35,469 nucleotides of DNA from Chloroflexota bacterium (GTDB taxonomy: Bacteria > Chloroflexota > Dormibacteria > Dormibacterales > Dormibacteraceae): contig VBGP01000034.1 of NCBI GenBank assembly GCA_005880795.1, forward strand, positions 1-35,469. The letters run 5' to 3'. This document shows, one piece after another, positions 11,930-16,829 of the stretch. The notes under the pieces were generated by a model. That model was not told the DNA's origin. It searched no databases and saw only the letters and a program-made list of their open reading frames with translations. The position numbers were made by a program, and so were the translations under genes. Numbering within the stretch: the stretch's first letter is position 1; the number at the start of each line of letters is the position of its first letter.

Positions 11930-12841
11930 CTACTCGATGGGTTCGCCGAATTGCCGGCTGCGGGATATGAGGGGCGTCGCCGGCTCTTGAGACATGACGT
12001 GAATCGGCACGACGTCGGCCGGCGCCGGCTCGGCAGGCACCGGCTCGGCAGCCGGAGCCGGCAGCTCCCGCTTCTTACGCGGCGCGCGGCGGGTCCGCGA
12101 CTGCGCCGGCTTGGCGGCCTGGACCACGTCTTTGGCGGCTGATCCGAGCAGGCTCTCCAGGGCGGCGCGGGCCGCGTCCTGCTCGGCTTCCTGCTTGCTT
12201 GCACCATGTCCGGTGCCAAGGGGCTCAGGGCCGGCGAAAACGACCGAGGTGTACTCGCGGCGGTTGGCCACGCGGGCTCCCTCGCTGTCGTACACCGGCG
12301 TTTCGCCGAATCGCTCCTGCGCGACCTGCTGGAGGCGGCCTTTGAAGTTCTCGTCGCGGACCGGGGACGGGAGGGCTCGATAACGATCGAGGTAGTAGTG
12401 ATAGGCGGCGTCATAGCCGGCGTCGAGGAAGACCGCGCCGAGCACAGCCTCGAACGCATTCGCGAGCAGGGACTTCAGGTTGCGACCGCCCCCTTTCGCG
12501 ATGCCCTTGCCGAGGTAGAGGTAGGCGCCCAGGCCCAGCTGCTCCGCAAGCTGGGCCAGGGTGTTGGTGTTGACCATGGCCGAGCGCGTCTGGGTCAGCT
12601 CGCCCTCGGCTGCGCCGGGATGATGCTTGTAGAGGTACTCGGCCGCGATGAGCTGCAGGACCGCGTCGCCGAGATACTCGAGCCGCTCGTTGTCGCGCGG
12701 CGAGACCGAAGGGCTCTCATTGGCGAACGAGCTGTGGGTGACGGCCTCGAGAAGGAGCCCTGGATCGCGAAAGTGAATTCCGATCTTTTGCTGTAGCTGT
12801 TGCAGCGACTGAGCGAGAGGTGCTGCCTGAGGCTGTGCTAT
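11930..12841 (-). CDS. rnc: ribonuclease III, probable ATA start, extended C-terminal tail
   Basis: 303 aa from ATA 12839-12841. RNase III cleaves double-stranded RNA, including rRNA precursors. The first ATG in frame (12577) lies after the catalytic motif. Upstream the frame reads [20 protein letters not shown], then [20 protein letters not shown], the catalytic core. No ATG, GTG or TTG exists upstream in this frame. ATA overlaps the acpP stop as ATAG and has AGGAGAAGG ending 7 nt upstream. CTG 12805 is the alternative. The dsRNA-binding domain (~165-235) is followed by a ~70-residue basic then Pro/Ala-rich tail absent from most RNase III proteins. Confidence 0.93.
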
Positions 12842-13086
12842 GAGCCGGCCTTCTCCTGGATGTACTCCCAGGCTTGTCCGACGGTCGTGATCTTCTCCGC
12901 GTCCTCGTCAGGAATTTCGAGACCCGTGTTTTCCTCGAACGCGTAGATCAGCTCGACGAGGTCGAGAGAATCGGCGTTCAGGTCTTCCTGAAATGAAGCG
13001 TCCATCGTGACTTGCTCGGGCTCGCAGCCAAGACGCTCGACGATGATGTTCTTGAAGTCCTCGAAGCTCAGCTTTTGAGTTTCCAT
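12838..13086 (-). CDS. acpP: acyl carrier protein
   Basis: 82 aa. ACP carries growing acyl chains on a phosphopantetheine arm. The attachment motif [14 protein letters not shown] gives Ser40. The acidic four-helix composition ([28 protein letters not shown]) is typical. The start is ATG 13084-13086; TACAGT (13101-13096) ends 9 nt upstream. Its TAG overlaps the proposed rnc ATA start. It precedes rnc and smc as in Bacillus, but no fabG, fabH or plsX is present nearby. Confidence 0.97.
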
Positions 13087-15262: not shown

Positions 15263-15748
15263 CTAGGAACCCGTCGCCTGGTCCGCGGTCTCCTGCGGTT
15301 GAGGCTGGTTGGCCTGCAGCGCCTCCACCCCACGCCGGACGGTCTGCAGCGTGCGGCCGAGATGCGCCTCCAGCTGCTTGAGCTGCTCGAGGGCGTAGGC
15401 CTCGGCCTCGCGGATGATCTGGTCGCCCTTGGCCTGAGCGTCCTTCACGACCTGCGCGGAGTGGCGCTCGGCGCGTCGCAGGATCTCGTGCTCGGAGGCC
15501 GCCTCCTCTGCGCGCTCGTTGGCTCGTGACATCGTGCGTGCGGCTTCGGCGTGGGCCTCGGTCATGATCCGCTGCTGCTCGGACACGGTCCAGTTCGCCT
15601 GCTTGATCTCATCCGGGAGGTTGAAGCGGATCTGGTCGATCAGCTCCATGAGCTCATCCTCGTTGAGCATGATCTGGGTCGAAAGCGGGACATGGCGCGC
15701 GTTCTGGATCAGGTACTCGAAACGGTCAAGCAGCTCGTCGACCTTTAT
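15263..15748 (-). CDS. coiled-coil protein encoded after coaD (DivIVA/ATP synthase B-like), probable ATA start
   Basis: 161 aa from ATA 15746-15748. The N-terminal region ELLDRFEYLIQNARHVPLST, then EDELMELIDQIRFNLPDEIK, is a conserved motif of a family seen near coaD in Chloroflexota and Clostridia. A long Ala/Glu-rich coiled coil follows (~60-145). The first ATG in frame would remove ~25 conserved residues, and no ATG/GTG/TTG lies upstream outside coaD shadow sequence. ATA overlaps the coaD TAA (ATAA) and has AAGGAG exactly 8 nt upstream, an ideal ribosome-binding arrangement. Function unknown; perhaps envelope or cell-division related. Confidence 0.8.
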   Translation of the reverse strand: MKVDELLDRFEYLIQNARHVPLSTQIMLNEDELMELIDQIRFNLPDEIKQANWTVSEQQRIMTEAHAEAARTMSRANERAEEAASEHEILRRAERHSAQVVKDAQAKGDQIIREAEAYALEQLKQLEAHLGRTLQTVRRGVEALQANQPQPQETADQATGS

Positions 15749-16251
15749 CTGAACTTCTCCTTCAACGCTCTCGCGACCGCCGCCGGGACGAGGTCCGAAA
15801 CCTTGCCGCCATAGCTCGCGATGTCCTTCAAGATACTTGACGAGACGAAGATGTGCGCGAAGCCCGACATCAGGAACACAGTGTGGATGTCGGGCGCGAG
15901 CTTGCGATTCATCAGCGCCTGCTGCAGCTCGGCGTCGAAGTCCGAGTAGGCGCGCAGACCCTTGACGAGCGTGCTCGCCCCCCGCGATCGCGCGTATTCG
16001 ACGGTGAGACCGGTGAAGCTCGCGACCTCGGCGCGGTCGCGTCCGTTGAGGGACGCACGGATCAGTTGGAGGCGCTCCTCGACCGTGAAGAGCGGCTGGC
16101 GCTTCTCCGGGTTGGCTGTCACCGCGACGATCAGCTTGTCGAAGATGCCGAGCGCGCGGTCGACCACGTCCAGGTGTCCGTTGGTGAAAGGGTCGAAGCT
16201 GCCGGGATAGACGGCGATCTTCGAGTTGGGGACCTGGTTGCGGGCCATCAC
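15745..16251 (-). CDS. coaD: phosphopantetheine adenylyltransferase
   Basis: 168 aa. CoaD makes dephospho-CoA from phosphopantetheine and ATP. The nucleotidyltransferase motif VYPGSFDPFTNGHLDVVDRA (~15-34) is diagnostic. The GTG at 16249-16251 overlaps the rsmD TGA as GTGA; the following ATG (16246-16248) also works. rsmD-coaD linkage is standard. A 12-bp hairpin lies within the last codons of rsmD directly upstream. Confidence 0.97.
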   Translation of the reverse strand: MMARNQVPNSKIAVYPGSFDPFTNGHLDVVDRALGIFDKLIVAVTANPEKRQPLFTVEERLQLIRASLNGRDRAEVASFTGLTVEYARSRGASTLVKGLRAYSDFDAELQQALMNRKLAPDIHTVFLMSGFAHIFVSSSILKDIASYGGKVSDLVPAAVARALKEKFR

Positions 16252-16829
16252 TTAGGGGCCCCCGAAAAATCGTAGATTTTTTGGGGTAGTCCGGCAATCA
16301 GCACTGTGACCACGGTGTCCCCGTAGCGCCGCTCGCGGTCGACGCGCAGGCGCGAGAGCTCCGGGAGCTGCTGCCGCTTGGAGTGCTCGACGAAGACGGA
16401 CGAGGGGGTGACGATTCGGTCCAGCACCTTGAGCACTCGATCGAGCACCGCGTCGTCATAGGGTGGATCGAGAAAAACGAAATCCGCTGCGCTCAGAACG
16501 CTGGGCCCAGCATCGAGCCAGTGGACAACGTCACCTCGAATCACGTCCGATCGGTCTTTGAAGCCGAGGGCGTCCAAGTTTTGCCGCAGGATAGCAAGAC
16601 CGCGAGGCTGCTGGTCCACGAACGTGACGCGCGACGCGCCGCGCGACAGCGCCTCGATGCCCAGCGCGCCCGAGCCGGCAAAGAGGTCGACCACGGTCGC
16701 GCCTTCGATGCGCGGACCGACCATGTTGAAGATCGCCTGCTTGACCATGCCCTGGGTCGGCCGGATGTTCTTTGGCGCCTTGAGGCGGCGACCCCTGGCC
16801 TCGCCGCCACTCACGCGCAGCCTGGACAT
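16248..16829 (-). CDS. rsmD: 16S rRNA (guanine966-N2)-methyltransferase
   Basis: 193 aa. MSRLRVSGGEARGRRLKAP, DLFAGSGALGIEALSRGA (SAM-binding motif I) and FVFLDPPYDD (catalytic DPPY) identify RsmD. The last ~13 residues (GLPQKIYDFSGAPK) go beyond the usual end of the family and are encoded by an AT-rich palindrome (16260-16286). ATG at 16827-16829 directly abuts the selD stop (TAGATG). Confidence 0.95.
   Translation of the reverse strand: MSRLRVSGGEARGRRLKAPKNIRPTQGMVKQAIFNMVGPRIEGATVVDLFAGSGALGIEALSRGASRVTFVDQQPRGLAILRQNLDALGFKDRSDVIRGDVVHWLDAGPSVLSAADFVFLDPPYDDAVLDRVLKVLDRIVTPSSVFVEHSKRQQLPELSRLRVDRERRYGDTVVTVLIAGLPQKIYDFSGAPK
16260..16286. repeat. AT-cored palindrome in rsmD 3' end, upstream of coaD
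   Basis: Plus strand CCCCGAAAAATC (16260-16271), 3-nt loop, GATTTTTTGGGG (16275-16286): a 12-bp stem with one G-U pair, or one A-C mismatch on the coding strand. It is in frame in rsmD and ends 9 bp before the coaD GTG. Its AT-rich core is unlike the surrounding GC-rich sequence. Confidence 0.6.

Follow-up and report, generated by a model that had tools for sequence, protein, structure and literature searches.

The window, a 35,469-nucleotide stretch of DNA from the Dormibacteraeota, a group of uncultured soil bacteria, raises a simple question: does the gene directly behind coaD begin with AUA? This codon is almost never used as a protein start. Furthermore, gene finders, which normally accept only ATG, GTG and TTG, shorten AUA-started genes or overlook them. 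The gene in question encodes a coiled-coil protein and lies in the minus-strand order rsmD - coaD - coiled-coil gene - rpmF - fabD (rsmD, rpmF and fabD are named solely by their sequence and place in this order). In Actinobacteria, too, proteins of a similar kind are encoded between coaD and rpmF. An earlier note on this DNA had described the Shine-Dalgarno sequence AAGGAG, 8 nucleotides from an ATA codon that overlaps the coaD TAA as ATAA, and had proposed initiation at that codon. By direct reading, these coordinates are exact. The relevant features, together with those of a second junction discussed below, are listed in Table 1.

Table 1. Features of the coaD/coiled-coil and acpP/rnc junctions, in window coordinates
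Feature	Position	Strand	Comment
coaD (pantetheine-phosphate adenylyltransferase)	15745..16251	-	GTG start, TAA stop; NCBIfam TIGR01510 E=1.4e-54, above cut-off
Shine-Dalgarno AAGGAG	15757..15762	-	within coaD 3' end; kept in family; complementary to family 16S anti-Shine-Dalgarno GGATCACCTCCTTT
ATA, probable start codon of coiled-coil gene	15746..15748	-	shares bases with coaD TAA as ATAA
Coiled-coil gene (read from ATA)	15263..15748	-	161 aa
Internal ATG, codon 27 (MLNEDELME)	15668..15670	-	nearest downstream standard start; rejected as true start
Shine-Dalgarno AGGAG	12853..12857	-	within acpP end, 11 nt before rnc ATA
rnc (RNase III) ATA, putative start	12839..12841	-	overlaps acpP TAG as ATAG
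rnc-like gene (RNase III), read from ATA	11930..12841	-	sequence and alignment

The coaD 3' end reads ...AAGGAGAAGTTCAGATAAAGGTCGACGAG. The spacer between AAGGAG and ATA is aagttcag and the coaD stop occupies positions 15747-15745. Hence, stop and putative start form a 4-nucleotide overlap on the same strand (15748-15745). Translation from the ATA gives IKVDELLDRFEYLIQNARHVPLS... and ends at 15263. Note that a search for the string AAGGAG-N8-ATAA gave a single match in the 3.2-Mb genome, as it did in a reversed control. The bare motif is therefore no rarer than chance, so that the motif alone is not evidence and conservation carries the case. No unusual RNA fold was found at the junction in folds of the window (z score 0.69) and of two related loci (L027 and L028).

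We then considered where translation of the coiled-coil frame could begin. Reading upstream in frame from the ATA, a stop is met before any ATG, GTG or TTG at 27 of 30 ATA loci; at L022 it lies 16 codons away. At the other three, the closest standard start is more than 170 codons distant. The window behaves in the latter way: the frame is open through coaD up to a TTG at 16297, 183 codons off, with no ATG, GTG or TTG between. Near the start of the frame, only the ATA has a Shine-Dalgarno sequence at normal distance. Downstream, the first standard start is the ATG at 15670. This is codon 27, often also the first downstream standard start in other genomes, and the true start could conceivably be here, with the upstream 26 codons untranslated. 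Such a start would deny translation of the N-terminal stretch KVDELLDRFEYLIQNAR. Across codons 2-26, variable sites are distributed 14/5/23 by codon position, the pattern of a translated frame, in which changes fall mainly at third positions and the protein is conserved. Conversely, the 25 codons before the ATA, read in the same frame, give 20/13/10, which is the pattern of the coaD frame. Since coding character appears after the ATA and coaD-like character precedes it, translation of the coiled-coil frame probably starts at the ATA or within a few codons of it. Alignment of the family, which the earlier note had suggested as a check, agrees: the internal ATG is not where homologues begin. Rather, the outgroup family of the same class (f3) has its ATG at the ATA column. 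L030 and L032 have no standard start at codon 27. Initiation at the internal ATG is thus highly unlikely. The earlier statements that the conserved N terminus begins close to the ATA, and that no standard start is available there, both hold.

The coiled-coil protein is present in 59 of the 61 genomes searched, including the window's own. A family-wide pattern search matched 39 genomes, of which 33, spanning 10 genera, have ATA with an identical ribosome-binding site (GGAGAA context). At the same column, the other six have CTG, TTG or ATG (two genomes each), and G027, which lies outside the pattern matches and was read separately, has ATG. One coiled-coil match, L026 (G022:C21), has a single in-frame TAG and possibly a shorter C terminus. 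The earlier note's expectation of a Chloroflexota-like host was close: the named relatives are recorded as Chloroflexi or Candidatus Dormibacteraeota metagenome-assembled genomes (MAGs) from several submissions, and L059, L064 and L068 are among those with the same ATA. Hence, assembly error is excluded. While the chance frequency of the bare motif would suit a sequencing error or a fortuitous intergenic ATAA, occurrence in 33 genomes, including MAGs of several submissions, refutes both. In a tree of CoaD and the coiled-coil protein, all 28 rows of one supported clade carry ATA, as does a separate pair, and two changes are required: the family's ancestor may have had ATA, with two later losses, or ATA may have been gained twice. 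In sister genera whose coaD stop is TGA, the preceding base is T, C or A. Note that two bases of the column are set by the coaD stop, and the xTG codons of these genera follow from TGA; their apparently proper starts are weaker evidence than they look.

Conservation of the ATA exceeds what the overlapping coaD sequence requires. The final coaD codon in ATA genomes is AGA (21 loci), CGA (4), AAA (2), ACA (2) or CAA (1). Its third base, the first of the ATA, is A at 30 of 30 loci, with a variable amino acid, against a background of 7.4% A at coaD wobble positions. Among 19 loci more than 10% divergent, no other of the 59 wobble sites is invariant for A. The Shine-Dalgarno codons AAG GAG AAG hardly vary either, which tells us less, G being frequent at their wobble positions. 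In principle, the A might be selected on behalf of coaD itself, for its termination context or TAA stop, rather than as part of a start codon. In all ATA genomes, it does stand before the coaD stop, which is always TAA. However, the TGA sister genera tolerate T, C or A at this position. Moreover, the combination of A before a stop and a Shine-Dalgarno sequence is found again at the acpP TAG and before a gene resembling dagK (below), in each case where the next gene begins. We regard selection for coaD alone as very unlikely.

The same observations bear on recoding. The coiled-coil frame is -1 relative to coaD and open upstream, and a Shine-Dalgarno-like motif can stimulate -1 frameshifting. 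Ribosomes could, then, slip at the coaD end to make a CoaD-coiled-coil fusion, merely passing through the ATA. Four observations make this extremely unlikely. The coaD end lacks a slippery heptamer; the last coaD codon differs between loci as listed above while the ATA is constant; the f3 coiled-coil gene has an ATG of its own; and ATA with a Shine-Dalgarno sequence recurs at the acpP-rnc junction and at infC, in the latter case with no stop overlap. Taken together, conservation, selection and reading frame support the earlier proposal, and the coiled-coil gene very probably starts at AUA.

The encoded protein appears, from its composition, to be a coiled coil, and no Pfam or NCBIfam family scores above its cut-off. 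There is weak resemblance to DivIVA/Wag31, with scores well short of membership (Pfam DivIVA, 13.4 bits against a cut-off of 28; NCBIfam Wag31, 22.1 against 260).

How might AUA be decoded? We found one initiator tRNA. It is ordinary, having a CAU anticodon, C1-A72 and an anticodon stem with three G-C pairs. An AUA-reading initiator, with anticodon UAU, was not found among the tRNAs read (39 of the 47 found). Two further CAU tRNAs, at L073 and L099 (G000:C90 and G000:C89), are similar to each other and look like the AUA-reading Ile2 type; the T arm of L099 is odd. The window's own genome yielded no 16S gene; those read belong to other genera of the family. They have an ordinary anti-Shine-Dalgarno, which the correctly spaced AAGGAG matches, and their CATGAAG motif around position 1338 is unaltered. 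The G1338A change has been discussed as relaxing start selection (PMC11497404); it is absent from the family 16S genes read. Given an ordinary initiator, no UAU anticodon and ordinary 16S RNA, normal fMet-tRNA is most likely the decoder.

These features suggest the following sequence of events. The overlapping AUA would be reached either by ribosomes that have just terminated coaD translation at UAA or by 30S subunits that the AAGGAG near the end of coaD has recruited. This codon would be set in the P site, 8 nucleotides behind the Shine-Dalgarno sequence, and ordinary tRNA-fMet(CAU) would initiate in spite of a third-position C-A mismatch. The strong Shine-Dalgarno sequence and the start-stop overlap may offset the weak codon. 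Even so, AUA probably holds the coiled-coil protein low relative to coaD, and may render its production sensitive to IF3. The gene for IF3 itself, infC, also appears to be AUA-started in family genomes.

Other genes of the family also appear to start with conserved ATA codons. The rnc gene begins with ATA in all 13 genomes aligned, and at all acpP-rnc junctions that a family-wide search matched. The codon before the acpP TAG is always TCA at the matched junctions, and the ATAG arrangement is conserved equally well as that at coaD. The junction, at 12841, is probably one of four cases that the earlier note counted but did not list. For infC, the start is ATA in 14 genomes and ATC in two (G035 and G019). 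A fourth example is the DagK-like gene of G003, where the junction reads GGGAGG-CCCACG-ATAG and the gene upstream resembles a glcD-type oxidase, judged from its C terminus. ATA is found here in G005 and G019 also; a family-wide pattern search gave mostly chance matches, so that we describe this example for these three genomes.

All four conserved ATA starts (coiled-coil, rnc, infC and DagK-like) occur in a single 224-kb contig of G003. By a strict scan, ATA starts make up approximately 2% of the 185-191 genes examined in this contig, a rough figure. Among gene overlaps in the contig, a Shine-Dalgarno-like motif accompanies 2 of 2 ATA cases, 12 of 50 NTGA cases and 0 of 7 other NTAA or NTAG cases. 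Most overlaps of the last group lack conservation across genomes, which makes them an internal control. With the coiled-coil gene and infC included, the motif is present for 4 of 4 ATA starts, compared with the 12 of 50 (Fisher p 0.006; the comparison is post hoc and only indicative). Similarly, when Shine-Dalgarno enrichment is calculated codon by codon, ATA is among the most enriched, with too few strict columns for firm statistics. Note that the start survey ran on individual contigs of family genomes. A survey of BLAST boundaries for genes lacking standard starts was too noisy, since alignments run into the overlapping upstream gene. We tentatively suggest, as a possibility with the balance of probability against it, that AUA serves this family as a regular start codon, kept by selection, for a small gene set, the messages being jointly held low by an IF3 that is itself AUA-started. 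The proposed set comprises infC, rnc, the DagK-like gene, the coiled-coil gene behind coaD and, probably, others, or about 2% of genes sampled. Two more ATAG junctions were noted in the window's genome: L135 2069 (plus strand) and L133 10705 (minus strand coordinate). The L133 junction has a good Shine-Dalgarno sequence and an ATG directly behind.

Bacterial AUA starts in the literature that we searched come chiefly from one Staphylococcus aureus study. There, infC, ccpN and citZ have AUA starts with strong Shine-Dalgarno sequences, and reporters yield ~10-30% of the AUG level; initiation at the infC and ccpN AUA codons was seen by retapamulin Ribo-seq, and the ccpN AUA is conserved (PMC13009471). 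The Dormibacteraeota coiled-coil gene shares the pairing of AUA with a strong Shine-Dalgarno sequence. In contrast, the passages of that study consulted describe no stop overlap, whereas the putative Dormibacteraeota AUA start lies inside ATAA or ATAG and is kept family-wide. In Escherichia coli, infC and pcnB start with AUU, and IF3 discriminates against the AUU of infC (PMC9410913). The likeness here is a weak start codon acting as a brake. Differences are that the E. coli AUU codons are not described as stop-overlapping, and that the Dormibacteraeota infC has AUA.

Stop-start overlaps are themselves familiar. Overlaps of -4 nucleotides are the commonest coupling motif, in the form NTGA (PMC12548453), and an intragenic Shine-Dalgarno sequence matters in most gene pairs tested (PMC6728339). 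As in NTGA pairs, start and stop at the coaD junction share two bases and the Shine-Dalgarno sequence is inside the upstream gene, so coupling would be expected (PMC12548453, PMC6728339). NTGA pairs, however, combine NTG with TGA; the Dormibacteraeota overlap combines ATA with TAA or TAG. Hence, AUA starts and stop-start overlaps are both already known, and it is the ATAA/ATAG overlap, with its family-wide conservation, that is new. No report of AUA starts in Dormibacteraeota was found in a literature search that was mostly without subscription papers, and earlier reports may exist. Family-wide AUA within a stop-start overlap indicates that evolution can retain a weak start as a trait, which sets it apart from noise. 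It also offers a gene list, infC, rnc and others, for IF3 control outside model organisms, and a route to more cases: invariant wobble A before TAA or TAG stops, with a Shine-Dalgarno sequence upstream.

Some gene overlaps in these genomes contain CTG. Behind smc, an ftsY-like gene (window 9141-9139, minus strand) overlaps as CTGA, and CTG is present in 8 of 9 genomes in a G003-based alignment; this may be a conserved CTG start. Likewise, three genomes keep CTG where CTGA overlaps precede aroB-, miaB- and hflX-like genes (G003:C86 131674, 67950 and 60497, minus strand; L148, L145 and L145, respectively). CTG starts may thus be common in the family.
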